Below are positions 1,678 through 56,173 of a stretch of 64,000 bases of DNA, piece by piece; position 1 is the first letter of the stretch, and every line of letters starts with the position of its first letter. The translations under genes were made by a program, and so were the position numbers. The stretch is from a virus: IMG/VR virus record IMGVR_UViG_3300021963_000124, positions 1-64,000 of that record; one strand, written 5' to 3'. Under the pieces are notes generated by a model, which worked only from the letters and a program-made list of their open reading frames with translations, was not told the DNA's origin and searched no databases.

Positions 1678-1681
1678 ATAT

Positions 1682-1689
1682 TATAAATA
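1682..1689 (-). promoter_or_regulatory. TATTTATA promoter-like box
   Basis: TATTTATA on the minus strand lies 4 nt upstream of the fibre ATG at 1677. It falls between that start and the terminator hairpin at 1735-1764, so the promoter for this gene should lie in this short interval. Confidence 0.5.
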
Positions 1690-1734
1690 GTTATGATAAT
1701 AAATATACGATTGATATAGTATATTACAATATAA

Positions 1735-1764
1735 CAACCCAAGAAACCGAAATTTCTTGGGTTG
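1735..1764 (-). terminator. Rho-independent terminator after the 1034-aa fibre gene
   Basis: A 12-bp perfect stem (1735-1746 pairing with 1753-1764) with a 6-nt loop is followed on the minus strand by a T/A-rich tract. It lies about 30 bp downstream of the stop codon at 1794. Confidence 0.75.
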
Positions 1765-1793
1765 CCAGAAACAACATACTCTTGATTTTTATA

Positions 1794-4898: not shown

Positions 4899-4924
4899 AC
4901 GTAGATTACATAAAGGTTAATATC

Positions 4925-4932
4925 TATAAATA
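4925..4932 (-). promoter_or_regulatory. TATTTATA promoter-like box
   Basis: Minus-strand TATTTATA lies 26 nt upstream of the ATG at 4898. It is followed by an AACCTTTA element (4911-4918) that also occurs upstream of the genes starting at 53251 and 57864. Confidence 0.45.
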
Positions 4933-4964
4933 TATAAATTTTATATTAAATTATAAATTTTATA

Positions 4965-6149
4965 TTAGGATGTCCATTGTGCGATATCTTGACGTAACCA
5001 TCTTCCGCTGACATAAATATAATGATAGTCTCCGTCATATGCCATCCAACCTTCTTCACCATAATCAGATGGTGTAGATGGAGCTGGATGCCAAATTGGA
5101 CAACATGCTGATCCTGTGCCTGTTCCGCCATTTATCGTTTGTTGAACTATTAATGCAGCATAACTTGCACGTATTTTTTCCAAAATTTCCCCACCTTCTG
5201 TGGTTGATTTTTCTGTTACAATTGTAGGTTTTGGAAATCTCCAAATATCATTATTTGATGATATTGGATTAATATCATAATATGGATTTGCTGGATTACT
5301 ATAACTGTTCTTTTTGATATCTTTTTTGACCGCATTCATTTGAGTGCCAGACACCAATTCAGAAGTTATACTTATTTTTCTTGGAGTTAAATACTTTTGA
5401 ACGGTTTTCTTTCTGTCCTCAAAACTTTCAGGTAACAAATACGCATATACAGTTAAATTAAAAGTAGAGCGTATAATTCTATCTTTTTCAGTTGGACTTT
5501 CAGATGTATTTGTATAATCATTTATACTAACTCTGAATTTAAAATTTTGAGGATCTCCCCAATAATCTTCGCTTGCATAATTAATCTTTTCTAAAACCGC
5601 ATTCATTTGTTCAATATATTCTGTCCATACCATAAATTCATATTCAACCTTAACATGATCAGGCAAAGACAGACTATAGATACTGTTAACTGGAGCAACT
5701 GTTTGATTTAATACACTAAATTTATCATATTTATTTTTTTCACTAAACTTAGTCAAAACAGGATAAGAAAGATATCTATTTAATGTCATCATACTTTCAT
5801 TTTTTGCAAATGAATTTCTTTTGAACATTATTATAGGTAATTGTATTTTTCCTTGGTTATCACGCAGATATCCATCTACTTTAGCAGATTTCCATTTTTC
5901 TGGGTTTCCATAAATTATTGGGACTTTTACATTTTCACCCGCATCAATAATTGTAGGATTTATTACATCTTCAATGTATTTGACAATGGCAGTATCAATA
6001 TCGATTAATGATATTGTAAAATTTTTCTTTGGGTCTTGGTCACGGCGAACATCAAACGCACGATTTGTTGTATTTGTAAAATACTTATTTTCTTGCGTTT
6101 TGTCCTCATTTGTTGGGACTGGATTATTTGTATTGCCTTTCCACGACAT
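4965..6149 (-). CDS. Tail terminator/sheath stabiliser, gp15-like
   Basis: 394 aa starting MSWKGNTNNPVP. The central part matches the T4 gp15 pattern: a VPI(I/T)Y segment near residue 80, a predicted beta region, a (V)EYEFMVWTEYIEQMNAVLEKI segment (gp15 has YELSIFTRYEDDMFQIVEQI), then R(V)SINDYTN and a FNLTVYAYLLPE strand. In T4, gp15 closes the tail tube and sheath and joins the tail to the neck. The protein is longer than T4 gp15 (272 aa). The extra C-terminal 90 residues include a Cys pair and end YHYIYVSGRWLRQDIAQW, like the neighbouring fibre. It sits directly after the gp13- and gp14-like genes, which supports the assignment. Confidence 0.7.
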   Translation of the reverse strand: MSWKGNTNNPVPTNEDKTQENKYFTNTTNRAFDVRRDQDPKKNFTISLIDIDTAIVKYIEDVINPTIIDAGENVKVPIIYGNPEKWKSAKVDGYLRDNQGKIQLPIIMFKRNSFAKNESMMTLNRYLSYPVLTKFSEKNKYDKFSVLNQTVAPVNSIYSLSLPDHVKVEYEFMVWTEYIEQMNAVLEKINYASEDYWGDPQNFKFRVSINDYTNTSESPTEKDRIIRSTFNLTVYAYLLPESFEDRKKTVQKYLTPRKISITSELVSGTQMNAVKKDIKKNSYSNPANPYYDINPISSNNDIWRFPKPTIVTEKSTTEGGEILEKIRASYAALIVQQTINGGTGTGSACCPIWHPAPSTPSDYGEEGWMAYDGDYHYIYVSGRWLRQDIAQWTS

Positions 6150-6151
6150 AA

Positions 6152-6622
6152 TTAATATTGTCTATTTACCAAGTTAATTTTACTCAATCTGCTATAATGT
6201 GTATTGCAAATTATACTAAGTGAATTGTCACTTTGACCACCTAAAAATTGTTCTTGAACTACATTATCAATTTCATGATAACGGTCATTAAAAAATATCA
6301 AATCTCCAACTTCTGGGAAAAAATTAGCTTCTTTCAAATCTAATTCTCTGAACTTATATACAACTGTTTGGTCTCTGTCAGGTCCAAATCCTTCATCGTC
6401 TGTTGTTGGGTCTGTTCTATCAATTAAAGCATTAATTTCAATGCCTGGATAAAAACTTTTACCTTCTGACCCAGCTTCTCCATATACATTTGTATTAGTT
6501 TCAGATGCGGCAATCTTAAATAATACAACAAAAGTTTGGATTAAATCCTCGTTTAATTCACGGTTTATGCCGTTTATATAAGCTAGGTCTCTTGAACTAA
6601 AATATCTTCCGTATAATCCCAT
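6152..6622 (-). CDS. Neck protein, gp14-like
   Basis: 156 aa, MGLYGRYFSSRD. T4 gp14 contains a PKEGDLIYFPxDNSLFEIxxVE segment; here there is FPEVGDLIFFNDRYHEIDNVVQE at about residues 110-132, in the same position relative to the C-terminal third. The length is shorter than T4 gp14 (256 aa). It lies between gp13-like and gp15-like genes with only 2-3 bp spacing, an order seen in T4-type phages. Role from family: gp13/gp14 complete the neck after DNA packaging so the tail can join. Confidence 0.65.
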   Translation of the reverse strand: MGLYGRYFSSRDLAYINGINRELNEDLIQTFVVLFKIAASETNTNVYGEAGSEGKSFYPGIEINALIDRTDPTTDDEGFGPDRDQTVVYKFRELDLKEANFFPEVGDLIFFNDRYHEIDNVVQEQFLGGQSDNSLSIICNTHYSRLSKINLVNRQY

Positions 6623-6625
6623 AAA

Positions 6626-7819
6626 TTATCCTACGTAAATTAAAAGTGGAACGGATCGCAACGTATCTCTCATTTTTTCAGCTTCAGTAGCTTTTGCTTC
6701 CATCAAAGCAGTTCTGCCTGTCGCTTCAAGATTTTCTCTCAATTGAGTAATTAATGCTTCCTTTTCTGTTTGAGCTTCATTTCTCAATTCTCCACCATCT
6801 AAGGTAACTTCTCCGCCGGGTATTGGCACAATATTATATTTTTGTCTTATTGCACCCAATAATTCCTTACATAATGCTAAGAAATACTTTTTAATCCACT
6901 GTTTACCCACAGCATTTAATTTGTTATAAACTACATTTTGATAGGGAGCGTTACTATAATCGCTGACTTCATCATAATTATCCGCAGGTGAAACTGCACT
7001 ATTAAACTTATCTTTTTCTACCACATATTCAACATAAGCATCATGGTCATATGTTGGAATTGGAAAAATTTTTAATTGATTATTTGTTATTTCAAAACTA
7101 TATGCACTCTTACGAACCATGTCGTTAAATTCAATGGCTTGACCACGAAGCAAATCTTCAAAGATTGGAGTCATTAAGAATTGAGTAGCAGGACTATAAC
7201 CAGCAAATCCCATTTCATTTAATATATTACTATAACTCATACCAGTCATACTGAATGGGTCATAAATACGAGCAAACGCTGGAGCTGGTCCGTGAAATAA
7301 TCTTCTAATTTCTACCTTGTTTCCACATTCACGTTCACATTCAATTAACTGATTTAAATCGTAATTTTGTTGACCCTTTTTCAAATGAACAGGAACTCTT
7401 TTTACTGGAACATCTCCGCCTACATCAATTTCGCTTCCATATTGACGAGACAATTTTACAACAAATGGAAGGCCTGATCCTTGTATATTTTTACCTGTAA
7501 TATTTGGATTATCAGTTGTATTTAATCCTTGCAAATTCAACAAATTATTTCTGATATTGAACTGATTTACTTGTGCGCCATATTCGCTGACAGCTTCTTC
7601 AAAACAAGCGTAAAAACTGACATCTTTCAATTCAATGTCAATGATTGGATATCCTAATCTTTTTGCTGCCCATTCTGCACTTTTCTCACAATCATATTCA
7701 AATTTACCAATACTGGCAGTATTGGAAGTTTCACTCAAATAAAATCCAAAGGGAACCGTAGTTAAGTTAACTGCGCTTCCACTGCCGGGCCATCTAATTG
7801 TGGTAGGGTCAAATGCCAT
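6626..7819 (-). CDS. Neck/head-completion protein, gp13-like
   Basis: 397 aa, MAFDPTTIRWPGSG. Near residues 40-80 it has the LG(x)P(I/V)I(D/N)(I/V)ELxD...EEA(V)xEY pattern that marks the N-terminal helical part of gp13-type head-tail connectors. The rest is an alpha/beta region with an IRRLFHGPAPAFARIYDPF segment and a long helical C-terminus. Followed after 3 bp by the gp14-like gene. Longer than T4 gp13 (309 aa). The assignment rests on this motif plus the gp13-gp14-gp15 order. Confidence 0.6.
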   Translation of the reverse strand: MAFDPTTIRWPGSGSAVNLTTVPFGFYLSETSNTASIGKFEYDCEKSAEWAAKRLGYPIIDIELKDVSFYACFEEAVSEYGAQVNQFNIRNNLLNLQGLNTTDNPNITGKNIQGSGLPFVVKLSRQYGSEIDVGGDVPVKRVPVHLKKGQQNYDLNQLIECERECGNKVEIRRLFHGPAPAFARIYDPFSMTGMSYSNILNEMGFAGYSPATQFLMTPIFEDLLRGQAIEFNDMVRKSAYSFEITNNQLKIFPIPTYDHDAYVEYVVEKDKFNSAVSPADNYDEVSDYSNAPYQNVVYNKLNAVGKQWIKKYFLALCKELLGAIRQKYNIVPIPGGEVTLDGGELRNEAQTEKEALITQLRENLEATGRTALMEAKATEAEKMRDTLRSVPLLIYVG

Positions 7820-7855
7820 ATATAATAAATATTAAAACAATTAGATTTATTATAA

Positions 7856-8533
7856 TTATAATCCAAATCTAGATTTAGTTGCATTATAGTTTTGTAATAC
7901 TTCACCGGCAGATAATACTCTGTTATAGATCCTGGCACATCCCATAGTCATGTTTACAAAGTAACTTGCATATGTTAACCTTGCAATCATTAAAGAATTA
8001 CTATTCGCACTTGGTGATAATGCTGTAGTTGCACTTCCAACTTGAACTCCATTGACATATGTTCTCTGAGAACCATTTGTTCCTGTTGCTGCAATATGAT
8101 ACCAAACTCCATTAGTAAAATTAGTATTAAATCCTGCCGCAGCATTGTCACCAACATATCTAAATACCAAATTTGTAGTCGATGCTGTATATGAATCTAC
8201 TCTTATTTCATATCCATCCGCGTTACTCAATGTTTTGCTTATAACTCCACTATATAATTGTGTTTGAGTTCCAAATTTTACGAAACACTCTAATGTTAAA
8301 TTAGTTAAATTTGATAATACATTGCCAAAATCTACATTGCTGTTTGTCCCATTAAACACTAATGTGCCTGTGTTATTACTGCTGAAACTGGGATTGTTTA
8401 TTGTTCCGGTATAACCATTTCCACTCAAATCTCTCAATACCGTTCCCGAACCAGGATAACTCTTAGTATTCGCAGCGTCAACTGCTAAAACTAATCCGTT
8501 TGTTACTATTTTTGGTGAATAATTAAATGCCAT
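7856..8533 (-). CDS. LamG/concanavalin-like virion protein
   Basis: 225 aa starting MAFNYSPKIVTNGLVLAVDAA, the usual opening of phage LamG-fold (Laminin_G_3 type) surface proteins. It contains LRDLSGNGYTGTI, a LECFVKF strand, WYHIAATGTNGSQRTYVNG and the closing ARIYNRVLSAGEVLQNYN. Such jelly-roll domains usually bind carbohydrate or act as capsid or tail decoration. The neighbour at 8685-9404 is a diverged relative with a similar final helix. Inferred role: exposed adhesin. Confidence 0.7.
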   Translation of the reverse strand: MAFNYSPKIVTNGLVLAVDAANTKSYPGSGTVLRDLSGNGYTGTINNPSFSSNNTGTLVFNGTNSNVDFGNVLSNLTNLTLECFVKFGTQTQLYSGVISKTLSNADGYEIRVDSYTASTTNLVFRYVGDNAAAGFNTNFTNGVWYHIAATGTNGSQRTYVNGVQVGSATTALSPSANSNSLMIARLTYASYFVNMTMGCARIYNRVLSAGEVLQNYNATKSRFGL

Positions 8534-8536
8534 AAA

Positions 8537-8683
8537 TTAAAAACACTGTTCGCCAGAGTCAGTTGCACCTACTCTTGTTTTCCATTTTATATAACCTTCA
8601 GCTTCTGCTAAAGTTTTTGCAACATAAAGAATTTCTTCTCCGTTTTTTACTAAAAATTGTCCGTCTTGTTCTGTTATTTCCAT
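8537..8683 (-). CDS. Small unknown protein (48 aa)
   Basis: The open frame extends upstream to 8737, but the internal ATG at 8683 is preferred: it starts MEITEQDGQFLVKNGEE, lies just after the stop of the upstream gene (8685), and the longer version has an unlikely Ile/Tyr-rich leader. Acidic, with LAEAEGYIKWK and a C-terminal Cys (SGEQCF). No family recognised. It lies between two LamG-like virion genes, so a small virion or chaperone role is possible but unproven. Confidence 0.55.
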   Translation of the reverse strand: MEITEQDGQFLVKNGEEILYVAKTLAEAEGYIKWKTRVGATDSGEQCF

Positions 8684-8684
8684 A

Positions 8685-9404
8685 TTATATATATCTAGAT
8701 TTAAATAAATTATAATTATACAATATATCACTTGCACTTAATGCAGAATTAAAACTGTGGATTGGTCCTAAATAACAATTATGCGTTGCAGTTGTTATAC
8801 ACCCAGTAACTCCTCCCAAATGTAAATTTTCATAAGTTCCGTCATTGCACGCTGACGATGTATATCCTTCTTGAACCCCATTTACAAAAATATATAATCC
8901 TGACGGTGATCCATTTTGCCATTTACAACAAATATAATTCCAATTTCCATTGCAAACATTTGTTGTTGAAGTGGTTGTTATATTGCCAGCGCCGCTATTA
9001 TCATATCCTAAAAAAGTAAAAGTGCCATTTGAATTAAGATATGAATTGATTCTATAACATCCAGACGGACCTCTATTTGATTCCGTATAAAAAGAAGTCG
9101 CATTTACTGCACCAATATATCTCATCCACCAACACATTGTCATATTTCCAAACCAACCAGTATTGGTTGTATAAATTCTACCAGAATTTAATCTTAAATC
9201 ACCAGAAACTTTTTGTGTTGTGTCTACTTCATAACCAACAGTTCCTTCAAATGTAAAATTCAAATTAGACACATTAAATTCTGAAAATCCATTTATTTGT
9301 GTAGAAGTAGACGCTCTACTCAATCTATTACGAGGATCGATATAAATTCGAGGAGAACTGCCTCTTAATAATTTTGCATATGTTGGACCACCAGTTAAAC
9401 CCAT
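8685..9404 (-). CDS. Cys-rich LamG-like virion protein
   Basis: 239 aa. Fold signs match the 225-aa neighbour: MTMCWWMRYIG strand, NWNYICCKWQNGSPSGLYIFVNGVQ (the LamG W-x-H/Y-x-x...VNG block), and a C-terminal FNSALSASDILYNYNLFKSR. It has about eight cysteines (MCWW, CYR, VCNGN, ICCKW, ACND, GCITT, NCYLG), unusual in this Cys-poor set of virion proteins. Probably a receptor-binding or decoration protein. The start at 9404 gives MGLTGGPTYAKLLRG and leaves 12 bp to the upstream gene. Confidence 0.6.
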   Translation of the reverse strand: MGLTGGPTYAKLLRGSSPRIYIDPRNRLSRASTSTQINGFSEFNVSNLNFTFEGTVGYEVDTTQKVSGDLRLNSGRIYTTNTGWFGNMTMCWWMRYIGAVNATSFYTESNRGPSGCYRINSYLNSNGTFTFLGYDNSGAGNITTTSTTNVCNGNWNYICCKWQNGSPSGLYIFVNGVQEGYTSSACNDGTYENLHLGGVTGCITTATHNCYLGPIHSFNSALSASDILYNYNLFKSRYI

Positions 9405-9416
9405 ATGTTATATATA

Positions 9417-9635
9417 TCAGTTGCCGCAATTAACGCACGGCATTTGTTGTTCTGTTGTCAATAATAATTGTTTATCGTTTTCTGCAACTGTAATGCTACC
9501 GGAAGGATAATTGTTAATTATATAATTTATTGCAACTTGAGTATCAGTGTTATTTTGTGGCCAATCCCAATTTCTATGCATGACATCACGCCAAAAATTG
9601 TCACGGTCTCTTATCATTATTATTTCTGTAAACAT
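9417..9635 (-). CDS. Small unknown protein (72 aa or 66 aa)
   Basis: Starts either at 9635 (MFTEIIMIRDRD) or at the internal ATG at 9617 (MIRDRDNFWRDVMHRNWDW). The C-terminus holds a CxxC pair (CVNCGN). The middle reads TQVAINYIINNYPSGSITVAENDKQ. No family recognised. It is tightly packed (1 bp) after a Cys-rich virion gene and before a LamG-like one, so it probably belongs to the same surface-protein set. Confidence 0.55.
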   Translation of the reverse strand: MFTEIIMIRDRDNFWRDVMHRNWDWPQNNTDTQVAINYIINNYPSGSITVAENDKQLLLTTEQQMPCVNCGN

Positions 9636-9636
9636 A

Positions 9637-10323
9637 TTATTTAGCCCATACTATTAATTTATTAGCTCTATCAACTGGACATGCACAACAATGATTATAA
9701 GCAGGTCCACCTTCACATCCTGCAAACCAACTTCTTATACAACTTTGTTCATAATAATTACTCCATCCACCTACATAACTACTACATCCGCCAGTAGAAG
9801 ATGTAACCCATGTTGATGGATAATTGGCTTCATTGCCGTCTCTTCTTTTGAAATATCCATTTGTAGTTGTAAAAGCATCACTAGACCACAAAGACGGATC
9901 TAAAAATAAATTATACATAGTGTCACTATTATTTAAAGAACCAGATGCCCAAACACTACCATTTGCTTCAGATATATGCCACCATTGAGTTCTTGTTTCT
10001 TTTGTTCCAGAATTTAAAAATAAACGAATATCTGCATCTGAAAATTTATTCATTGCAGTATCATTTTCAGTTGGTAATGAACCTGCAGTTGCTGATACAG
10101 AACCAGAAATATAAGGACTTGTGCCTCTAAATACAGTAAAAACACAAAACCACGCTGAATTTGCATCATTTTTAATATCAGCCCATACCTTTGTTGCGGG
10201 ATTATTAAGTCCGCCTAATCTAACGCCCACATATCCATTTTGATTTAATCCATTTGAAGTAAATCTTACTTTATTTTTTAAATTGTCTCCGTTTATTGCG
10301 GCTGGTCCTACTTGTGATCCCAT
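9637..10323 (-). CDS. Unknown virion-type protein, Cys-rich C-terminus
   Basis: 228 aa, MGSQVGPAAINGDNLKNKVRF. Predicted mostly beta, with many Ser/Gly/Asn and aromatic residues. The C-terminal third has clustered cysteines (GGCSS, SCIRSWFAGCEGG, HCCACP) that could form disulfides or bind metal. No family recognised. Composition and location among LamG-like proteins suggest a capsid- or tail-surface protein. It may end a fibre or act as adhesin, but nothing in the sequence proves this. Confidence 0.5.
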   Translation of the reverse strand: MGSQVGPAAINGDNLKNKVRFTSNGLNQNGYVGVRLGGLNNPATKVWADIKNDANSAWFCVFTVFRGTSPYISGSVSATAGSLPTENDTAMNKFSDADIRLFLNSGTKETRTQWWHISEANGSVWASGSLNNSDTMYNLFLDPSLWSSDAFTTTNGYFKRRDGNEANYPSTWVTSSTGGCSSYVGGWSNYYEQSCIRSWFAGCEGGPAYNHCCACPVDRANKLIVWAK

Positions 10324-23488: not shown

Positions 23489-26400
23489 TTAAGCTCCTGG
23501 GAATTGAGCACCAGTTGGCAACACATTGAAATCAAGAACAATGAATTCTGCTGTTCTGGTTGGTTGGATATAGATTTGTCCATAGAGGATGTTTCTATCA
23601 ATAATGTCTGGGGTATTATTGGTTTCATCCATCTTAACTTGGAAGGCATACAATCCACTACGTTGTTGAACAGATTCTAAGTATGGGTTGACAATACTCA
23701 AGAAACGGTTTCTTGTAGCAGCAATGTTTTGTTCGAATACCAAATATCTACTTGTGCTTGCGATGAATTTCTTCAAGGCAATCAACAATCTACGAACATT
23801 GACTCTATCAAGAGCACTTGACTTTTGTTGAAGTGTCTTTTGACCCCATACACAGATACCTTGACCAGGAAATGCTGCGATTGGATTTACACGACCTTCA
23901 TAGAGTGTATCACGTTCACCGTGTGTAGTTCTATCAAGAACTTGAACTGCTTGTGGGATACCACCACGATTCAAACCGGCAGGAGCAAACCATTCAGCAG
24001 CAACATTGTCATTAGCAGCATATACTGAAGGTAATACAACTGAAGGAGGAACACTTATAATCTTATTAGTGTTTGTATCCAAAATACGAACCCAAGGATA
24101 ATAGGTTGCCACATAGTTACTATCGATTGTAGATATATCACTTACAGCAGCATCAATCAATCCAACAGATTGTCCACTATTTGGGAACACTACGTTATCC
24201 ATTATGTAGAAACAATCTCCACGGGATTCACACATATCGATTGTCAAATCGGCAACATAACTATGTTGTTGATGTAAAATGCCAGGTGTCACAATCAAAT
24301 TGATATCGAATTCATCAGCATTTCCGAGAGCCCCAATTGATTGTTTATAAGCAACTGAACCTGCACTTGAAATGTTTGTACAATCCAATCCTTGTGTATT
24401 GCCTGCTACGATATCACCTCCCAAGTTTATCTTAACGGCTGGTGATTGACCGTCAAATCCACCTTGGAATCCGAATATAAACTTACGCATCTTGGCATAT
24501 GATGTTTCGTTCACATCATCAGGATTTGTAGAAGGTATACTTCCACTCAAACTTGCGGCCAAGAATGATCCTGTATTTGAACCTACAATTACATTATCCA
24601 AAGCAAATCCGACATTTACGCCTGATGATGGATTACTTGGAATTGGAGCAAAATATTGAGCATTATCATTATATACTGGAACACCAGTTGATACTGTTGG
24701 ATATAATCCTACAAGTTCAGTATCAGTTGAAGGAACATCATTAAATACTACACCTGAAGCGTATCTTCCCAAAGCTTGTCCATACAACGAAGCATTACTA
24801 TATTTCATTGTTGGGGCAACTTTAGCAATATCACCTGAGAGAGGAGTATAATATGCTTGGAATCCGTATGGAACAGATGCCACAGGATATTCATTTGTGG
24901 ACATTTCGATTCTAATATATTTACTTACATTAGAATAAATTCCATATTCAACAATCTTGCCAGAATAAGTTATAAAATTATATCTATCACCGATTCTGCG
25001 AGCAATAAAGTTTGCACTATCTGGATCTAAACTTAAATTGGTGAATGTTTCAAGATACTTAGGACGTTTGTCTGTATCATTATAATCACGAACAGAAAGT
25101 GTGAAAGATCCCCAATCACTTCCTGGCACTGAACCTGCCAATTTAACGTCGCTGATTTCAATCTTATACAATTTATTAGCATTTGTTCCATCAGTTAATG
25201 TATGGATTTTAAATAAATCGTGTCTTGTTGTTGTGCCATCAACAGCTGCAATCTTTTGAGAAACAACATATGGTGTATAAGCATTAGTCAAACTGAATTG
25301 ACTATCACCATCAGCAGGATTAAACGAATTTGCATCAGTGAAATTTAATGGATTTCCACCACCAAACGTATTGGAATTTGGAAGAACTGCAATTTTAATT
25401 CCATATTTTGTTGGATTTGCAGCAACTTTTGCCATCGAATCTTCAAATGCTTTATAAAGATATGCATTTACAGTGGAATCAGTGGTTTTTGCTGATTTTT
25501 GGAATACATTTGTAATATATTTTTGGTTTGCCTTATCCAATGAGAATTCATAGATACCGTATCTACCAGCAGAACTACCGCTCAAATTTAAATAATAATT
25601 TGATTGTATGCTTGAACTGTTAGAACTCAAAATCGAAGTCAAACTTAAACTTGAACCACTAAATCCAGGAGATTGTAAATCGGTTCCTGGTGAATGATTT
25701 GTTGTATCAGCCAAAACTGCCAACAAAATTTGATTTGCATTTGATTGTGAAGTCCAATTTCCACAACTATCTACACTTGATGATCCAGCAGAAGTAAATG
25801 CACCGGTGAATTTACCAAATGATCCTGATACTAAACCTTCCAATCTAAATACTGGATCTACGCAGTTATCTTTATATGAAATAAATTTTGCAGATTTTAA
25901 TGTTACACTAGTAAATGGTTCATCGGTTCCATATACAATTTTTTCAGTCAAAGATCCTGTGACTGAAAAGTTTTGTAAACCGTAATTCAATAATTCGGCT
26001 GCAGTCATTGATGATGCTGTAGGAAGTGTGGTTGATCCTGCCCAACTCATTGTAATGCTTGTATAACCATATCCAAAAGATGGAATATTTATAGATGATC
26101 CTGCAAAAAGTTGACTGCCACTTGGAGATGTCGCTGATGTAGCAGTTCCTGAACCAGCTGCAAATGTAAATATAAATGAAGAAGTAGGAATGTTCGCAGT
26201 GAATGTTACACTATCTATATAAGTTGCGCCAGTAGCAGTTGCTGTCAACGAAGAGAATCCAGCAAAAAATGAACCACTTGATAATGATCCTGATGGAATA
26301 AAGAAAGAAGACCCGGTAACTAACGCACCAGCGTCAATATTTCTAGTATAACTTCCTGATTCTGCATAAATTGCAATTGGATATCTTTGATCGTAACCAG

Positions 26401-26692
26401 TTAAACCGCCAACGCGGCAAACAGTTACGAATCCTTTTTCGTTAAGATATTCTTTGGCGGTGTATGGTCCATAATAAGTTCCATCAGCAATACCAAACTT
26501 TTCTTCTAAATCAGCAGTGTTGGTAACCAAAGTTGGGCTAAATCCTGGACCTTTTGCGAACGGTGCAACGACTACGGCTCCAATATCAGCTACACCTTGA
26601 ACAATGCCTGATAAATCATTTTCTCTTGTAAAGACTCCTGGGCTAACAATAGTGTTAACAGGACTAAATCTTCCACCTTCTTGTATTGGCAT
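23489..26692 (-). CDS. Tail sheath protein, gp18-like
   Basis: 1067 aa, much longer than T4 gp18 (659). The N-terminus VNTIVSPGVFTRENDLSG...GAVVVAPFAKGPGFSPTLVTNTADLEEKFG and the YTAKEYLNEKGFVTVCRVGG segment are typical of contractile sheaths. The C-terminus has the conserved core: GRVNPIAAFPGQGICVWGQKTL, VNVRRLLIALKKFI, FEQN and a GQIYIQPTRTAEFIVLDF strand. The central 600 residues hold Ser/Gly/Thr-rich inserted beta domains, probably exposed on the sheath surface. A strong AAAGGAAA Shine-Dalgarno sequence (26701-26708, 8-nt spacing) and a TATTTATA box further upstream fit high late expression. Confidence 0.93.
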   Translation of the reverse strand: MPIQEGGRFSPVNTIVSPGVFTRENDLSGIVQGVADIGAVVVAPFAKGPGFSPTLVTNTADLEEKFGIADGTYYGPYTAKEYLNEKGFVTVCRVGGLTGYDQRYPIAIYAESGSYTRNIDAGALVTGSSFFIPSGSLSSGSFFAGFSSLTATATGATYIDSVTFTANIPTSSFIFTFAAGSGTATSATSPSGSQLFAGSSINIPSFGYGYTSITMSWAGSTTLPTASSMTAAELLNYGLQNFSVTGSLTEKIVYGTDEPFTSVTLKSAKFISYKDNCVDPVFRLEGLVSGSFGKFTGAFTSAGSSSVDSCGNWTSQSNANQILLAVLADTTNHSPGTDLQSPGFSGSSLSLTSILSSNSSSIQSNYYLNLSGSSAGRYGIYEFSLDKANQKYITNVFQKSAKTTDSTVNAYLYKAFEDSMAKVAANPTKYGIKIAVLPNSNTFGGGNPLNFTDANSFNPADGDSQFSLTNAYTPYVVSQKIAAVDGTTTRHDLFKIHTLTDGTNANKLYKIEISDVKLAGSVPGSDWGSFTLSVRDYNDTDKRPKYLETFTNLSLDPDSANFIARRIGDRYNFITYSGKIVEYGIYSNVSKYIRIEMSTNEYPVASVPYGFQAYYTPLSGDIAKVAPTMKYSNASLYGQALGRYASGVVFNDVPSTDTELVGLYPTVSTGVPVYNDNAQYFAPIPSNPSSGVNVGFALDNVIVGSNTGSFLAASLSGSIPSTNPDDVNETSYAKMRKFIFGFQGGFDGQSPAVKINLGGDIVAGNTQGLDCTNISSAGSVAYKQSIGALGNADEFDINLIVTPGILHQQHSYVADLTIDMCESRGDCFYIMDNVVFPNSGQSVGLIDAAVSDISTIDSNYVATYYPWVRILDTNTNKIISVPPSVVLPSVYAANDNVAAEWFAPAGLNRGGIPQAVQVLDRTTHGERDTLYEGRVNPIAAFPGQGICVWGQKTLQQKSSALDRVNVRRLLIALKKFIASTSRYLVFEQNIAATRNRFLSIVNPYLESVQQRSGLYAFQVKMDETNNTPDIIDRNILYGQIYIQPTRTAEFIVLDFNVLPTGAQFPGA

Positions 26693-26778: not shown

Positions 26779-29700
26779 TTAAATAAAGGAAACCTTACTA
26801 AACCCATTTTCTTTACGAATTTCTATTCTACTATCAACCATATCTTTCATGCTATCCAAATGACTTACAATCCATACAAAGTCAAAGTTTGTCTTCAAAA
26901 AGGCAAACAAAGTGCTCATAGATGATAAATTATCGGCATCAGCGCAGCCAAATCCTTCATCTATAGCGATAAAGTTAGGTCTAGGCAGATTGCTAATATT
27001 GATTAATGCGACTCTTATAGCCAACGAACTTACAAATTTTTCTAAACCACTTGATAATTCCAATGGCCATTTTTTGTCTTCATAGTTAATAAAAGTGCTT
27101 ACATTTTTACCATCTGTTTGTAAAGATATATTAAATTCTACTATTTGATTCAAGATATTATTAACTTCTTTTTCAATAGTAGGTAGTGCTTGACTAATCA
27201 ATTCGTATGGAATACCGTCTCTACCTATAGCTGAGTTATACAATTCGTATGCTTCAGAGACGGTTTCCAACGATTTTGTTTCTTCAATAGTCTTTTCAAT
27301 CTGAGACTTTTGGTCAATGGAAGAGTTAAGATTAGACTTTAAATTTATAATTTCCGTATTCTTTTGTTTAATTTTACTGTCAATCAATTTAATACTTGAT
27401 TTTATAGTTTCAATAGTTGATTTAACAATATTATTACTTTCGATATTATCTTTTTGTTTATTAAATCTATCAATCTTTTCCACGATTGTATTTAATTTAG
27501 TTTCTTCTTGTGAAATTTTATTTTCAGTCGAAACAATTGAATTATTAAACTTGTTTAACTTATTTTCGATATTAGTTTTATTAATTTTAATATCTGTATA
27601 CTTTTTATATTCGACTTCAATATTGCCATATCCATTAATTTTGTTTTTCAATTCATTGTATTTTTGAAAAACAATTAACGCATTTGATTTGTCTTTTTCT
27701 AAATCTTCTTTGGTTTTTATGGCATCTTTTACAAACACATTGTTTGTGCAATATTCACAATTTGGGTCATATTTGTGTTGTTCAAGAGTCTTTAATTTTT
27801 CTAATTTGGTATTGACAATGATTTTGAAACGTTCTATTTCATTTTCTTTGGCAGTAAATTCTTTTTTAACCAAAACATATTCATCATATTTGTCGCTGAT
27901 ATTATCAATCAGATATGATTTTTCTAAATCTATAGAACTAGACAATTCAGTCTCTATTTTTTTAGATTCGTCTTTGAAATAATCAAGTTCTTTTACCAAT
28001 TTCTGTATAGTATTCTTACAAGAAATTTCAGCTTGAGTCAAAACCGTCAAATCTCCAATATCATTATCAACTGAGATAAGTTTTTTTGTTTCTTCGAGCA
28101 AAGAATTGTTTTTAATGTCTCTATCAGACATTAATTGTTCTAAATTTTCACTTTCATTCTTTATTAGACTTGATGAAACTTCAATTATATTTGTCAACTC
28201 ATTCAATTTCTGAGTATAATCATTTTTCTTGAAATTTCTGAGTAAAACATTAATTTCTTTGATTTTTTCTTGTGATGTAGATGACAATTTATCAAAAATA
28301 TCAAGTCCCATAAATTGTGCCAACAGTTCTTTTCTTTCTGTTTGACCCATGTCAATAAAGGAGCCGGTTTTATTATTTTGAATACTCAAAACTGTCAAAA
28401 TAAAATCATCATAGGTGCCTACATAATCTCTGATAATGTCATTTGTGCTTCTACGAGCCTCACCGTTGAGTTCAATTACTTTACCACCCTCTTCTTTCCA
28501 GAATTTAACATCAACTTTAACATTACCTTTTTTATCGGCATTTCCTACTCTTTCGATGAAGAAGTCTACACCATTCACTTCAAAATTAAATTTACATCTA
28601 AATGTCATTTTTTGAGTATTCAAAACATGAGATGCTTTAAATGCCCGGTCACATTTATCAAAAATACAAAATGATAATGCGGATAAAATACTTGATTTTC
28701 CTGCTGCATTTGACGCAAATAATCCAATAACATTATGCATCTTGGTAAAATCTATAACGTTACCTTCACCATAACTAAACATATTGTCAAATTCAAAAAT
28801 CTTTGGTTTCCATCTAATATTTTTGACAATTTGTTCTTTGCCTAAAGACGCATTCAATTCTTTATTGATGGTATAAACTTTTTCTAACACTTCTTTATCA
28901 TCAATATCAAATTTATGTTTGATATAATCCGTGATAAGTTTATTTTGATAGTCTACATCAACGATGCTATTAATATTGAGATTAGTATTGTCAATAATAT
29001 TTTTACTTTGAGTAACTAAACTATCAACCCTAACATATGAAATATCCACCACTTCAGATATTTCTCTGATTTTAGACAATACGGATTTAACTTCTGTGGC
29101 AACACTCTCACAACACTTCATTCTAAGTCTGACCTTCTTAGGAATGTCAGAAATATCAGTTGCAAGTTTGCCTTTATTTACATCTACAGTATAAAATCCA
29201 TAATCATTAGGAACTTCAAAGTGCTTGAATGCCTTTGTTTTCAAATCCCAATATACAAATCCATGTCCTTTTAGTTCTTCACCATGAGATTGTTGGATTG
29301 TAGACCCTGCATACACAATCACAGGTTTTTCTTCAATATTGTTGTATTGTTGAAGTATTTGATAACGGTGAATATCACCAAGAAGAGCGATTTGATGACC
29401 ATCAAACAATTCGTTTGTAATTGTTCTATTAGACACTTTGTAACCAACATCAGTAATTGCGTCATTTACAGCGCCATGAAACAATACAACATTATAACGT
29501 GTTTCATTTAGATAGTTTTTGGGAATATCTTTGAACTTTACATATTTTTCATGTTCATCAAATATAGAAAAATGATTGAAAAGAATATCACCGAGTATAA
29601 AAATGCCAGATTCTTTTAGATAGAAGAGGTTTTCGTGATTTAATGCGTCTACAATTGGTGTTAGACTGTCCAATCTATTTTTATTCGCCAAAGTTGCATC

Positions 29701-29979
29701 ATGATTACCCGCAATCAATACAGTAGGTCTTCTATCTGCAAGATTTTGAAGAAAATCAGAAGCAGTTTTGACACATTCTGGACTCAAATCACTTTTACTA
29801 TGAAACAAATCACCCAATACGGCAACCACAGTTGACTCTGGTGTTTTTTCTATTGCTTTATAGAGCTTCTGAAATACTTCATTATATTCATCATGTCTTT
29901 TTGTAAGACGAATATGAACATCTGCGATATGAAATATGTTTGTAAACTCCTTTACACTACATGATAATTTTGTTGCCAT
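26779..29979 (-). CDS. Fused Mre11-Rad50 (gp47-gp46 / SbcD-SbcC) protein
   Basis: 1066 aa single frame. Mre11-type phosphoesterase: ADVHIRL (about 19), VLGDLFHSK (56), AGNHDAT (90), a LFHGAV block and LLGDIHRYQ. Rad50-type ATPase: FDNMFSYGEGN then Walker A ASNAAGKSS near residue 428, long coiled coils, a zinc-hook CEYC near 743, signature ELSSGLEKFVSSLA near 976 and Walker B FIAIDEGFG near 1008. In T4, gp47 and gp46 are separate subunits that process DNA ends for recombination-dependent replication. Here both are in one chain. In the usual Mre11 GHxH motif the first His is Asp (GDIH). Followed by 86 bp without a gene before the sheath start. Confidence 0.93.
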   Translation of the reverse strand: MATKLSCSVKEFTNIFHIADVHIRLTKRHDEYNEVFQKLYKAIEKTPESTVVAVLGDLFHSKSDLSPECVKTASDFLQNLADRRPTVLIAGNHDATLANKNRLDSLTPIVDALNHENLFYLKESGIFILGDILFNHFSIFDEHEKYVKFKDIPKNYLNETRYNVVLFHGAVNDAITDVGYKVSNRTITNELFDGHQIALLGDIHRYQILQQYNNIEEKPVIVYAGSTIQQSHGEELKGHGFVYWDLKTKAFKHFEVPNDYGFYTVDVNKGKLATDISDIPKKVRLRMKCCESVATEVKSVLSKIREISEVVDISYVRVDSLVTQSKNIIDNTNLNINSIVDVDYQNKLITDYIKHKFDIDDKEVLEKVYTINKELNASLGKEQIVKNIRWKPKIFEFDNMFSYGEGNVIDFTKMHNVIGLFASNAAGKSSILSALSFCIFDKCDRAFKASHVLNTQKMTFRCKFNFEVNGVDFFIERVGNADKKGNVKVDVKFWKEEGGKVIELNGEARRSTNDIIRDYVGTYDDFILTVLSIQNNKTGSFIDMGQTERKELLAQFMGLDIFDKLSSTSQEKIKEINVLLRNFKKNDYTQKLNELTNIIEVSSSLIKNESENLEQLMSDRDIKNNSLLEETKKLISVDNDIGDLTVLTQAEISCKNTIQKLVKELDYFKDESKKIETELSSSIDLEKSYLIDNISDKYDEYVLVKKEFTAKENEIERFKIIVNTKLEKLKTLEQHKYDPNCEYCTNNVFVKDAIKTKEDLEKDKSNALIVFQKYNELKNKINGYGNIEVEYKKYTDIKINKTNIENKLNKFNNSIVSTENKISQEETKLNTIVEKIDRFNKQKDNIESNNIVKSTIETIKSSIKLIDSKIKQKNTEIINLKSNLNSSIDQKSQIEKTIEETKSLETVSEAYELYNSAIGRDGIPYELISQALPTIEKEVNNILNQIVEFNISLQTDGKNVSTFINYEDKKWPLELSSGLEKFVSSLAIRVALINISNLPRPNFIAIDEGFGCADADNLSSMSTLFAFLKTNFDFVWIVSHLDSMKDMVDSRIEIRKENGFSKVSFI

Positions 29980-47576: not shown

Positions 47577-49556
47577 TTACATTACATCTCCTTTAATATC
47601 GGTTTCTGGATATTTCACTTCAAATATACACGGATCTAATGAAGGATATATTATTTTGTTTTTTGTCGCTGCATTTATATCATATTGATGTGGAGAATAA
47701 TTTCCATCATTAATATTAAGATTATATATCATCAATTCAGCAACAGATTGAACTCCATCGACTTTTGCGATTTCTAATTCCAATTGACTTAAATTAATTG
47801 GTTGTGAAAACCCCCATTTTTCAATATCAAAAAATTCTCTAACTTTTTGATTGCAATTATTCAATACATCTCTCTTATTATAATTGTTATATATTACAAT
47901 TTTGTAATTAACTCCTATGTTTATTATATATCCGTCTATAATATTTACACCATCAGTCAATAATCTATATTTTGATAAATATTGTTTTAAATTGTATGTT
48001 AATGCTTCATTTATTTGAGTCAAATGTTTTTGAGAATCGTATGACAAAACATACAAATTTATTGAAAATGGATTACTGATATCATAATTTATTTTTCTGA
48101 AATAATTTTCAACTGCGTCAGTTATTCCAGTTGCATTGTTATTATTATCCACAAATCCACTTACATTTTTTTGTAAATTGAAACTTAAATCCACATCTGA
48201 TTTTACGTATGCCTTTGCTACACTTCCAAATCTAGAAGGCATGGATAATGATCTAACTACGTAATCATCCTTAGTCACTGCTCTATTTTGAGAAACAAAC
48301 AAAGATATAGCATTTTGTCTTATTTCTTCAACGCTTTCTTCATCTTTGCCACCAACCGCTGCTACAAAATTGTTTACTCTCAAAGATTGAATTACCGTAT
48401 TAAACAAATTTTGTTCAATTGGATTAAATGAGGTTGCATCATTTAATAATTCATAAGAATTTATTCGTATAATTTCATTGACATTGCAATTAGATAATAA
48501 TCCGCCACCAACTATATAAGTTATTGTCAACGTTGTATTATATGGCGAAACTCCATATGTATTTGTTTTTAAAAAATTACTACTATCCAATGAAATGTCA
48601 ATGTTTGAAATATTTGAAAGTCCAATTCCAATAATGTTAGAGTTTGGATATATAATTTCATCTGCGGAATTATCTAAATTGGCACCAAATTCTAAATATG
48701 TAGTATTGTTGGCAGTGACGTTTCTTGTAAATTTTCTTGAAGTTTTCAATGACTTCATTATTTTAGGAACTTCTGTTTTATAAATGTAAAAAGATCCATC
48801 GTTAGTTTGAATATTATCAATATCCGTAAATATTACATCTTGAGCAAGATAATCTACCTCATACCATTTATTATTGTTATCATCCTTTACTTCTACAATT
48901 TCCAAAACATTTGTTTCATCAAATTCGATTTTGTAAAATGGAGTAGGATTTCCAACCGAAACCGTTTTTACAACCAATTCGCCCGCAAATGCATTCACCA
49001 CTTTTCTCAATAAAAAGAATTGAGGAACTCCTAATGAGTCTCTAGAATATACAGTAACTTCTCTAGGCGAAAATTTTGTATCAACAGAAAAATCGACAGA
49101 TTCATTTGTCAAAAATCTTTGACCTGATATATTTTCAAACTGTGCATATTGTTTTATTGATAATGAATACTTATCGTCAGGAATGTAATTTCCATCATTG
49201 TCTATTTTTGAAGGAACTAATTGAAAAAGTTCTAATTGAGTAGTAGCCGATTTAGTAGCAGATGGTCTATAACCAAGATATTTAGCTAAGGTTAATACGT
49301 TTTTCCGTTCTTCGGCATATGGCATCAAACTTTCTTTAAATTGATAATCTATATAATATGAAAGAACATCACCAACATAAGATGCTTGTTCTATAAACAT
49401 CGTTCCTGGGGACGCATCACTAAAATCTTGATAACTTCTAGGATAGTAATTTTTTGCAAAATCAATTAATCCTTGTTTAAAAGAGTTAAAATCTCTATTA
49501 AGATATTTAACATCTTTATTTAAAGGTTGAAATGATTTTTGTATATTGTCAGGCAT
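47577..49556 (-). CDS. Baseplate wedge protein, gp6-like
   Basis: 659 aa, almost the length of T4 gp6 (660). Family signs: KYLNRDFNSFKQGLIDFAKNYYPRSYQDFSDASPGTMFIEQASYVGDVLSYYIDYQF at the N-terminus, and the gpJ-like core GGKDEESVEEIRQNAISLFVSQNRAVTKDDYVVRSLSMP near 410-450. Baseplate_J family proteins form the dimeric wedge ring that holds the baseplate together. Five bp after gp25, the usual gp25-gp6 pairing. Confidence 0.92.
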   Translation of the reverse strand: MPDNIQKSFQPLNKDVKYLNRDFNSFKQGLIDFAKNYYPRSYQDFSDASPGTMFIEQASYVGDVLSYYIDYQFKESLMPYAEERKNVLTLAKYLGYRPSATKSATTQLELFQLVPSKIDNDGNYIPDDKYSLSIKQYAQFENISGQRFLTNESVDFSVDTKFSPREVTVYSRDSLGVPQFFLLRKVVNAFAGELVVKTVSVGNPTPFYKIEFDETNVLEIVEVKDDNNNKWYEVDYLAQDVIFTDIDNIQTNDGSFYIYKTEVPKIMKSLKTSRKFTRNVTANNTTYLEFGANLDNSADEIIYPNSNIIGIGLSNISNIDISLDSSNFLKTNTYGVSPYNTTLTITYIVGGGLLSNCNVNEIIRINSYELLNDATSFNPIEQNLFNTVIQSLRVNNFVAAVGGKDEESVEEIRQNAISLFVSQNRAVTKDDYVVRSLSMPSRFGSVAKAYVKSDVDLSFNLQKNVSGFVDNNNNATGITDAVENYFRKINYDISNPFSINLYVLSYDSQKHLTQINEALTYNLKQYLSKYRLLTDGVNIIDGYIINIGVNYKIVIYNNYNKRDVLNNCNQKVREFFDIEKWGFSQPINLSQLELEIAKVDGVQSVAELMIYNLNINDGNYSPHQYDINAATKNKIIYPSLDPCIFEVKYPETDIKGDVM

Positions 49557-49561
49557 ATAAA

Positions 49562-49957
49562 TTATATATTAGTAGTAGTAGTCACAAATGAAAAACTGCT
49601 GGTTTCTTTATTATATGTAAATTGAACTTTCACTCTTATTATATAATTATTAATATCATTGTTTTTTTCAGCAGAAGAAATTTCCAAAAACACTTGATTT
49701 ACAAAAACATTGGGAAACCAAATATTAATATCTTCTTTTATAATATTTTTTAATATATCTTCAAAATCATCCGTTTGTTGTTCGAATAAAAAATTATATA
49801 AACGTGTTCCGAATTTGGGATTAAATCTACGTTCAAGTGGACGGGTATTGAAGAAATTTAATAAATTCGAACGAATCTGTGTAAGAGAATCATAAGATTG
49901 TTGAAAATATCCACTATTTCCCCTTTGCAACGGCAACGTTAATCCTATAGTAGTCAT
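49562..49957 (-). CDS. Baseplate wedge protein, gp25-like
   Basis: 131 aa (T4 gp25 is 132). Contains SLTQIRSNLLNFFNTRPLERRFNPKFGTRLYNFLFEQ, the conserved core of the GPW/gp25 family, where the EhR-type motif nucleates sheath assembly. Adjacent to gp6-like as in many contractile tails and T6SS. Confidence 0.92.
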   Translation of the reverse strand: MTTIGLTLPLQRGNSGYFQQSYDSLTQIRSNLLNFFNTRPLERRFNPKFGTRLYNFLFEQQTDDFEDILKNIIKEDINIWFPNVFVNQVFLEISSAEKNNDINNYIIRVKVQFTYNKETSSFSFVTTTTNI

Positions 49958-51068: not shown

Positions 51069-52871
51069 TTATTCCATTTCTATTAAATTTTTACCAAAAA
51101 ACTTTTCATGTATTTCTAAAGGATTTGGTCCTCTAACGTTTCCAAATGGTGCGGATTTATATCCTCCTGGAACACCTTCTCCTGTATATGGATTTATGAC
51201 AGTATTAGTCAATACCGATGGATATAGACCAGGAGCATATCCTCCGCCTGTTAAAAATACTCTTTTACTTAAAATTATACCAAGAGAATCCCTCAATTGT
51301 CGTAATCGCATTTGATCAGGAGAAACTTCTGTAACTGTAGGAACTGCGTTTAATGTGTTAACTGGAACTGCATTTAATGTAGGTTCTGTCCCTAAGGTTT
51401 TTGTAGTGTCTATACTAGTTGGACTTGATATACTTGCTAATGCAGCCGTTGTTCCCTCATCAGCAACTAATGTAAGTCCCTCTTCGGTTAACGATGGAAT
51501 AGGTGGTCCGCTTACACCTGATCCGCCACCGCCTTCGTGAACATGAGGATTTGGATGAATGTGTGGATGAGTATGAACATGCGGGTGTGGATGTAAATGA
51601 TTATTTCCATGTTTATGTTCCAACAACCAATTGCATAGATCATATAACCAATCTACCAAAGTTTGTCCTAAAACAGCAGGTTCATTGGTTTGATTATATT
51701 CTCCCAAATAAATTACCGGAGAATTTAATACTGTTTTAGTGTTAGAAGTTATTACAACTTGATTTTCAGCATCGACTGTATATTCGTCATCTGTAGCTAT
51801 AGCATATCTTTTTTTGCTAAAATGAAAAGTTTCTTCGTTTTTACTACTAAATATAAGTCTATCTGAATTTATAACTATTTGATCTCCTATTAATTTACTT
51901 GGAAATATAAATTTGGTTGATCCATTTGGTGAAAATGCCGGATTTTCTAACGGAGATACATCAGGAGATTGAAATATTCTTTTTTTAACTGTAGTTACAA
52001 ATGGTGATTGAGTTAATCCTGATGTTATATGAATCGAAGATCCATCATTATTTATATCTTCTGAAATAAATCCTCCAGGATTGGATTCGGTATCAATATT
52101 TTGAATAGGTCTCTGTCTATTTCGAATCAAAATCATTGGGTTTCCGCCACCAGATGGTTTATTTGTATATGGATTTTTAACTTTATTGTAGTAATCTCTA
52201 TATTTTTTCTCACCTACATCATTGTCTCTATTTGAGTCATATGCTGAAAATCTTATTGATTGTCCAAATCTACTTTCAATTACAGTGTCTCCTTCATATT
52301 TTTTAATGGTTCTAATGTTTTTATTTGCAACGAAATATCTTCCCAATGCACCTTTATCATCATTTGTCGCATATTTAGTTGAAACCAATATTGACTCAGG
52401 ACCTTGATATTTTTTTGCTACATCATTTGGATTTGTTCTTTTTTCTAAATTAAACTTTGCAGGACCAGCAGATCTTTCTTTAGAAAAGTCGGCATTATTG
52501 TTCAAAAATCCATTAGGGATATTTAATTTTCTAAAATAATACAACTTTTTAAAATATCTACCTACTATTACTACTTCATTTACTAATGGATATTCGACAA
52601 TACCAGTATTTTCCATAGGTATTGCCCAATCATTAATGTCATCTTTATCAATATTATATAAAGAGACTAACGGTCTTACCAAAATTCTTCCAATCCAGGA
52701 ATAATCAATCGAATCACTAAGTGCGGGCTTATTTTCAAAATTGTCAGGAACAGATGTATAATCTAACTTAACAGTTTTAGTCTTAAATATAGGATGATTT
52801 TCGTCAAGTATTACATCTAATACGACCGCTGGCTCCAATTCATAAAAATGCTTATTTTCGTCAGTATACAT
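51069..52871 (-). CDS. Baseplate central spike/hub protein (gp5/gpV-like), His-rich
   Basis: 600 aa. The N-terminal region (ELEPAVVLDVILDENHP...YSWIGRILVRPLVSLYN...NTGIVEYPLVNEVVIVGRYFKKLYY) has the OB-fold pattern of gp5/gpV-type spikes (residues 10-115). A beta-rich section (KFIFPSKLIGDQIVINSDRLIFSSKNEETFHFS... TVDAENQVVITSNTKTVLNSPVIYLG) suits a spike stem. Then comes WLLEHKHGN and a 21-residue His-x-His tract (about 422-442, ten His) followed by SGVSGPPIP, the HxH...SGPP ending seen in metal-tipped spikes. No lysozyme domain is present, unlike T4 gp5. The last 140 residues are linker-like. Confidence 0.7.
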   Translation of the reverse strand: MYTDENKHFYELEPAVVLDVILDENHPIFKTKTVKLDYTSVPDNFENKPALSDSIDYSWIGRILVRPLVSLYNIDKDDINDWAIPMENTGIVEYPLVNEVVIVGRYFKKLYYFRKLNIPNGFLNNNADFSKERSAGPAKFNLEKRTNPNDVAKKYQGPESILVSTKYATNDDKGALGRYFVANKNIRTIKKYEGDTVIESRFGQSIRFSAYDSNRDNDVGEKKYRDYYNKVKNPYTNKPSGGGNPMILIRNRQRPIQNIDTESNPGGFISEDINNDGSSIHITSGLTQSPFVTTVKKRIFQSPDVSPLENPAFSPNGSTKFIFPSKLIGDQIVINSDRLIFSSKNEETFHFSKKRYAIATDDEYTVDAENQVVITSNTKTVLNSPVIYLGEYNQTNEPAVLGQTLVDWLYDLCNWLLEHKHGNNHLHPHPHVHTHPHIHPNPHVHEGGGGSGVSGPPIPSLTEEGLTLVADEGTTAALASISSPTSIDTTKTLGTEPTLNAVPVNTLNAVPTVTEVSPDQMRLRQLRDSLGIILSKRVFLTGGGYAPGLYPSVLTNTVINPYTGEGVPGGYKSAPFGNVRGPNPLEIHEKFFGKNLIEME

Positions 52872-55690: not shown

Positions 55691-56173
55691 TTATTTAATT
55701 GTAACCTTTCTTACTTCAGGAACCACAGGTTTTACTTTGTTGAGAGTAATTTGAAGGATTCCATTTTCAAATGTAGCAGAAACGGTATCTTTTTCAATAT
55801 TGTCTCCCAATGTAAATGACCTGCGGAAATTAGAACGTTTCAATTCTCTTCTAATATACCTACCACCCTCAGTGTCTGTAACATTTTTACTTTTTCCACC
55901 AATAACAGTGAGAACATTTTGTTGAACTTCAACATTTACGTCGGCTTTTGTTAATCCTGGAACTTCTGCCTCTATAACAACTTTATCATTAAAATCAATT
56001 ACATCAACTCTTGGATAAGACCCCTTTTCGAAAAAATCTATACCAAATTCTTGTGTAAATGAAGGGACATTTGCTTTGAAAAATTCATCGAAAATTTGAT
56101 CAAACGGAGTCAAAAATTCCTCACGATGAATTGCATGAGATAACGGATTAGTTCTATATTTTACTACTGACAT
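55691..56173 (-). CDS. Small heat-shock protein, Hsp20 family
   Basis: 160 aa. Alpha-crystallin domain from YPRVDVIDFNDKVVIEAEVPGL (about 54-75) through LTVIGGKSKN, YIRRELKRSNFRRSFTLGD to the conserved GILQITLNK, with a C-terminal VRKVTIK (I-x-I type) tail. An ATP-independent chaperone that keeps proteins from aggregating; related genes occur in T4-like cyanophages. A strong AAAGGAAA Shine-Dalgarno sequence (56180-56187) lies 6 nt upstream, with a hairpin directly before it. Confidence 0.93.
   Translation of the reverse strand: MSVVKYRTNPLSHAIHREEFLTPFDQIFDEFFKANVPSFTQEFGIDFFEKGSYPRVDVIDFNDKVVIEAEVPGLTKADVNVEVQQNVLTVIGGKSKNVTDTEGGRYIRRELKRSNFRRSFTLGDNIEKDTVSATFENGILQITLNKVKPVVPEVRKVTIK

Follow-up and report, generated by a model that had tools for sequence, protein, structure and literature searches.

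A graded, in-register series of HxH motifs in a candidate central spike protein of a contractile-tailed phage

We found that a 600-residue phage protein carries five HxH motifs at a strict six-residue period, and that its relatives carry between one and five copies of the motif. We think it somewhat more probable than not that this protein makes up the self-tipped, trimeric central spike of a contractile tail, and that its residues 419-445 form a distal, metal-holding needle which grows by hexapeptide units. The first-pass annotation of this DNA had proposed a spike holding several metal ions; this interpretation is partly supported: it is plausible though unproven, and the in-register series described below adds to its strength.

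The His ladder and the protein that carries it

The window, by which we mean the whole stretch of viral DNA that was analyzed (64,000 nucleotides), encodes a tail sheath, a portal, a terminase, and a major head protein as well as gp25-like and gp6-like baseplate wedge proteins, and its source is a contractile-tail phage. The features used in this article are the following, with positions in the window.

51069..52871, (-): candidate central spike protein, 600 aa (ORF; gene order upstream of gp25)
51669..51914, (-): strand-like stretch before helix 1, residues 320-401, which we take to be a beta-helix
51615..51668, (-): predicted helix 1, residues 402-419, GQTLVDWLYDLCNWLLEH (AlphaFold2, block pLDDT 68-89; conserved in alignment A2)
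51537..51617, (-): His ladder, residues 419-445, five HxH plus spacer His 429 and 435
51501..51515, (-): VSGPP, residues 453-457, after a Gly-rich linker
51264..51320, (-): predicted helix 2, residues 518-536 (AlphaFold2, block pLDDT 56-89; conservation)
49562..49957, (-): gp25/gpW-like baseplate wedge protein (Pfam PF04965, 4.5e-09; phrog_261, 2.4e-10)
47577..49556, (-): gp6/gpJ-like baseplate wedge protein (phrog_219, 1.9e-15)

The tract, HKHGNNHLHPHPHVHTHPHIHPNPHVH, has 12 His among its 27 residues and consists of the motifs HKH, HLH, HVH, HIH, and HVH, which start at residues 419, 425, 431, 437, and 443 and are separated by the spacers GNN, PHP, THP, and PNP. A His-rich tract had been noticed before, with ten His in 21 residues. 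That count is right, but the 21 residues are 425-445, three later than had been given, and the first pair (H419/H421) had been missed, so that the tract runs over 419-445. The His had also been described as alternating, and ten of the eleven slots are indeed filled, with Asn in slot 441; what recurs among relatives, however, is one HxH per six residues.

The first 6 relatives, which are 78-85% identical, have all 12 ladder His without exception, and conservation of H419 and H421 reaches at least 90% across the 93 rows of alignment A3. Spacer His come and go among other relatives, as in HTHGMNHTHPHPHVHPNPHIHPDPHIH of L015 and with an extra one in L019, but the HxH persist, and alternating His is therefore not a conserved feature. 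Judging from these comparisons, the conserved unit is one HxH per six residues rather than an unbroken alternation of His. Recent slippage of a repeat at the DNA level was considered as a cause of the tract and rejected, as the 21 pairs formed by seven sequences share 9-12 His, 2-8 of which are written with different synonymous codons, and Tandem Repeats Finder reported no DNA tandem repeat in the tract. When the inner residues of the window tract were shuffled, all HxH stayed in register in 9 of 200000 shuffles. The register was kept in 1439-9812 of 200000 such shuffles for six tracts with three HxH, and the argument from a single tract is therefore strong for long tracts only. Taken at the sequence level, the His tract is a real feature that selection maintains, beyond what chance or recent repeat slippage would leave.

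The ladder is not a C-terminal apex. It lies inside the chain between two predicted helices, 155 residues from the C-terminus, and set as it is between helix 1 and the linker with helix 2, it is best described as a hairpin-like insertion. Helix 1, which also appears in the weak full-length AlphaFold2 model (403-419), runs straight into the ladder, and a family motif, SxRVF (535-539), overlaps the end of helix 2. The AlphaFold2 models were monomers, with a mean pLDDT of 39.7 for the full length (25 sequences) and 60.4 for the C-terminal part (93 sequences). Even in the better model, the ladder blocks have a pLDDT of 50-59, too weak to place the tract, and a Foldseek search of this model against the PDB gave no match. 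Residues 330-389 have a block pLDDT of 69-85, and no secondary structure is assigned to them in the monomer.

Two smaller features lie close to the ladder. Cys413 (window 51633-51635, (-)), a helix 1 residue, precedes the first His by six positions. Its invariance in A3 follows in part from the way those rows were picked, by a motif that includes this Cys. All 25 rows of A2, which were not picked by that motif, have it as well, but two relatives, L007 and immuto, lack it, and we did not use it as evidence. A short direct repeat, TLNAVPVNTLNAVP (window 51339-51380, (-)), is found between the ladder and helix 2, and the six A1 relatives have it too, slightly altered.

The assignment as a central spike comes from gene order and layout. 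Two ORFs lie between the candidate spike gene and the gp25 gene downstream on the same strand. In 16 of 16 chosen records, for which gp25 only was checked, a single gp25 homologue lay 0.57-2.55 kb downstream of the family gene, again in the same orientation. The window's order of spike candidate, gp25, and gp6 resembles the V-W-J order of P2, although V and W are adjacent there and other genes intervene here.

Homology searches did not identify the protein. Pfam gave no significant match for the window protein, for any of 25 family members (0/25), or for distant members. PHROGs gave nothing significant for the window protein, the 25 members, or the relative L052, with weak matches at 0.06 (a baseplate protein) and 0.033 (L052). 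Alignments A2 and A3 had no hhalign match to a 6-sequence gpV alignment, sequence and profile searches of the PDB returned nothing significant (best E-values 0.39, 1.6, and 0.6), and the annotated relatives are labeled hypothetical protein. Because the gpV, Pfam, PHROGs, and PDB searches were negative, we call the protein a candidate central spike by its position and layout, not by descent. No Phage_base_V domain (PF04717) was found in its own record (0/1), a weak absence given that these 64974 bases may be a fragment. A PAAR domain was likewise found in neither this record (0/1) nor 12 others (0/12), among which Mel-JY01 is a complete genome and the rest are virus contigs that may be fragments. 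The probable function of this tail protein is to pierce the host cell.

Elsewhere in the window, the tail sheath protein (23489-26692, (-)) has 1067 aa, and its best sheath-family stretch covers residues 731-1064 only. Its gene is adjoined within the structural block by an SbcC-like gene (26779-29979, (-); phrog_77, 3.8e-47), the product of which also matches an SbcD-like family (1.5e-25). An Hsp20/alpha-crystallin gene (55691-56173, (-); PF00011, 1.4e-22) is located near the baseplate genes.

Ladder length and register among relatives

We searched IMG/VR with the window protein, with a profile (best 80 of 185 relatives), with His patterns, and with a pattern that describes the helix ahead of the ladder. 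A 25-member profile applied to the collected loci at E <= 1e-10 yielded at least 208 family ORFs; the immuto protein (L009, from Flavobacterium phages) missed this limit and is outside the set. The helix motif is present in 204 of the 208 listed ORFs, which gave 94 distinct 50-residue segments including that of the window. The four uncounted ORFs either end before the motif (L068 and L087) or have a different helix (L007 and L008).

Among the matches listed, the 94 distinct segments contain one HxH (19 segments), two (39), three (26), four (3), or five (7); as these matches were also partly His-selected, the counts are not frequencies. Three of the viral scans selected His patterns, and 87 of the 94 segments were also found without His selection, while the seven segments from His-selecting scans alone are members with three HxH. 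For measuring lengths, a tract was extended by any HxH within eight residues in any phase; it ends in HxH by construction, and the steps between are not forced to 6. The resulting lengths, again among the matches listed, were 3 residues (19 segments), 9 (37), 11 (2), 15 (26), 21 (3), and 27 (7), which is to say that 92 of the 94 listed segments have a length of 3, 9, 15, 21, or 27, and two a length of 11.

The register is equally strict. Across the 75 tracts of at least nine residues, His occupies phase 0 in 203/203 cases and phase 2 in 203/203, and phase 1 in 0/203. At the remaining phases it is found in 2/130 (phase 3), 63/130 (phase 4), and 33/128 (phase 5). As a background, we took contigs that were not His-chosen and their 1497 distinct ORFs (100 aa or longer) outside the family, where HxH starts 3-12 residues apart occurred as three pairs (spaced 10, 11, and 11) and none at 6. 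The other phases also have a recognizable composition. The 24 distinct tracts with two HxH have Y, H, or F at phase 4 in 24/24 (Y16, H7, F1) and T, S, V, or I at phase 1 in 44/48, phase 4 of the tracts with four or five HxH is mostly polar (H, N, or D in 26/30), and long ladders often have Pro at phases 3 and 5. Such a graded, in-register series fits several stacked sites.

The end of the ladder varies with its length. The SGPP that follows the window's tract (residues 454-457) had been called usual for such spikes; it is present, and SGPP, TGPP, TGPN, or VGPP follows the tract in most members with five HxH, but not in those with two or three. The stretch separating SxRVF, an anchor that two of the 94 segments do not have, from the final His of the ladder has a median of 27 residues with one HxH (27-45, k=18) and 31 with two (31-41, k=39). 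It is 39 with three HxH (all 25) and 90 with four (all 3), and has a median of 91 with five (55-91, k=7). This order is broken by members with one HxH and long helices (43-45) and by one member with five HxH at 55. The growing distance fits a return path beside a longer needle, though the number of independent events behind it is small.

A tree was built from the region upstream of the helix for 81 of the 94 distinct rows, leaving out rows in which the helix is preceded by fewer than 250 or more than 600 residues. Rows with three HxH (24) group together in a single clade (100/100), as do, in a second one, those with four or five (ten rows; 100/98). The five HxH classes require 7 changes on this tree, compared to a mean of 37.4 in shuffles, and the state of at least three HxH requires two changes by parsimony. 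Two separate lengthenings of the ladder would thus be the simpler reading, though not a proven one. Forcing all 34 rows with at least three HxH into one clade was not rejected by the AU test (p-AU 0.094), and we therefore do not claim convergence of the long ladders.

The most distant relatives, which come from named phage records, carry one HxH or none. Mel-JY01 (L008, a Microcystis phage) and immuto, both cultured phages, have proteins that are detectably related to the window protein and share its gene order, yet have no HxH in the matching tip segment. A single HxH, HTHPSPVGPTGPP, is present in L007, from a 484-kb uncultured phage record. By eye, a further branch of the family (most of L072-L090) has several hundred additional residues that separate its N-terminal part from the helix, and it ends in a single HxH.

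Comparison with known metal tips

The parallel with known spikes that had been drawn at first reading is supported for the motif: the unit of the tract is HxH, from which known spike trimers build their His6 iron sites. Those of P2 gpV, phi92, and R2 pyocin are described as holding one iron caged by six His from three HxH (PMC6116203, PMC10715212). The same His6 iron cage has been modeled for a Bacillus phage spike (PMC11448403), and a C. difficile phage needle is reported to have a hexahistidine site with putative iron (PMC11948020). The arrangement in our protein differs, in that the trimers of P2 gpV, phi92, and R2 pyocin PA0616 each hold a single iron, at the C-terminal apex, whereas the window protein has five internal HxH with period 6. 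The tip end of P2 gpV, HTHKHPGDSGGTTGSPL, has His pairs followed by G-rich and TG-P residues, like the window protein; its HxH is invariant in the 6-sequence gpV alignment, compared to five in register here. Zinc tips of the PAAR/gp5.4 type also place a metal-stabilised sharp tip at the spike end (PMC10715212). That tip is a separate protein, while the window's ladder lies within the spike candidate itself and no PAAR domain was found in the 13 records.

Several HxH along one trimeric needle are known from tail fibres. The T4 gp37 needle holds seven irons, as reviewed in PMC11705849, and its HxH likewise make His6 iron sites (PMC6116203). A podovirus tail fibre has six HxH (PMC11705849), and HxH tips are described in other tail fibres (PMC11990801). 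Domain D11 of gp37 resembles the window chain in carrying several HxH, and it is an insertion into another domain (PMC6957217), so that its chain presumably goes out and back. Replacing H929 or H931, which form an HxH, with alanine abolishes plaques, and F970 lies in the hydrophobic core of the trimer (PMC6957217). This Phe is four residues after the start of an HxH (H966, H968), the same offset as phase 4 in the window family. On the other hand, phase 4 is mostly polar in tracts with four or five HxH, which speaks against the gp37 core being simply reproduced here. We also considered whether the ladder has the period of gp37 and rejected this, as the spacings in gp37 are 32, 14, 37, 14, 9, and 9 from residue 883. 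gp37 is a fibre tip with a collar-fold domain, while 25 members of the window family gave no collar-type Pfam match, and no sequence homology between the family and gp37 was found using Pfam (25 members) or the family profile against the PDB.

Based on these comparisons, it is plausible that several HxH at a six-residue period in a central spike candidate extend the known HxH metal tip. We found no report of several HxH in a central spike in the open-access literature; subscription papers were mostly outside this scope, which makes the absence a weak one.

A putative polymetallic needle and its alternatives

An extended strand turns its phases 0, 2, and 4 to one side. We propose that three chains would leave the end of helix 1 as parallel, extended strands, with each unit, H-x-H-x-z-x, directing the His at phases 0 and 2 and residue z at phase 4 toward the threefold axis. 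The six His of each layer pair would cage one metal in octahedral geometry, probably Fe(II), and five units would give five metals in a row per trimer. Each chain would then turn back through the Gly/Pro-rich linker to helix 2. The needle could lengthen or shorten by whole hexapeptide units, as the one to five units of the relatives suggest, and strand geometry would allow a rise of up to ~20 angstroms per unit if fully extended. Held together by metals, the three thin strands would become a stiff needle, and the metals may also fix the register during folding.

More broadly, and as a tentative idea that we hold with clearly less confidence than the needle itself, a polymetallic needle of six-residue modules with one octahedral His6 site each may end the membrane-piercing spike, with evolution adding or removing whole modules and so setting how long the needle is and how many metals (one to five) it holds. 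The number of modules is perhaps matched to the depth of the host envelope, or perhaps nucleates a longer trimer.

Some observations speak against a spike needle of this kind. The searches gave no homology to gpV, Phage_base_V, or a solved protein, the HxH of known tips are near the C-terminus, the monomer models are weak, Pro occurs at phases 3 and 5 of long ladders, and the distant relatives Mel-JY01 and immuto do without a ladder, while L007 has one HxH. Low AlphaFold2 confidence over the tract and its Gly/Pro-rich flanks would also be expected of a flexible His-rich loop between the helices, which would chelate metal loosely without an ordered on-axis stack. His-rich linkers occur in bacterial metal-handling proteins, and such tracts are common: among the matches listed, period-6 matches in genome contigs (frames of at least 200 aa) were largely rich in H together with D, G, or E, although these stretches were read by eye and some are frame artefacts. 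The ladder, in contrast, is composed of V, I, T, P, W, and Y rather than D, G, and E, as compared by eye, and its register is not loose. The strict six-residue register, the quantised lengths, the complete absence of His from phase 1 (0/203), and the retention of HxH where spacer His are lost all count against a flexible loop, and we consider it unlikely.

The protein might alternatively be another axial or baseplate part, such as a hub or a fibre-like component, in which case the ladder may still bind metal. Such a part would agree with the lack of profile similarity to gpV or Phage_base_V, the lack of a PDB match, and the hypothetical-protein labels of the relatives. Its probability is low in our estimation, since the gene lies shortly upstream of gp25 in 16/16 records; no Phage_base_V was found elsewhere in its own record, which weighs little as the record may be a fragment. 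We give slightly less credence still to a purely structural role, in which stacked layers of His and aromatic residues, perhaps pH-sensitive, would set the folding register of a trimeric needle with few or no metals in the virion. The aromatic residue or His at phase 4 in 24/24 distinct tracts with two HxH suggests layer packing of this sort. The authors of PMC6116203 think that buried ions most likely serve folding, a view they describe as without experimental support yet, and we counted it in favor of this alternative. Packing alone, however, would not demand His at phases 0 and 2 in 203/203 cases each, and the HxH sites of the phage trimers solved in the cited work hold metal.

If the metal-holding needle is correct, these natural homologues, with one to five HxH in one register, would make metal stoichiometry, trimer stability, and piercing comparable by motif number. 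For fibre iron, stiffness and folding nucleation have been discussed as roles (PMC6116203), as has an iron-mimicry (Ferrojan or Trojan Horse) idea (PMC11705849). A needle with several irons would add to the iron that phage particles possibly carry in water.

The same period also occurred in two other proteins on viral contigs, a collar-domain protein (L242, 3100-4482; HTHDLTHKHNMAHTHGISHNH) and a collagen-like protein (L182, 2-1279; HTHGTSHTHGMSHTHGMSHIH), both classified by Pfam. Each has four successive HxH at a spacing of 6, along with other HxH at other spacings, and both were among the matches listed for patterns that asked for such His spacing. These may be fibre needles with the same period.
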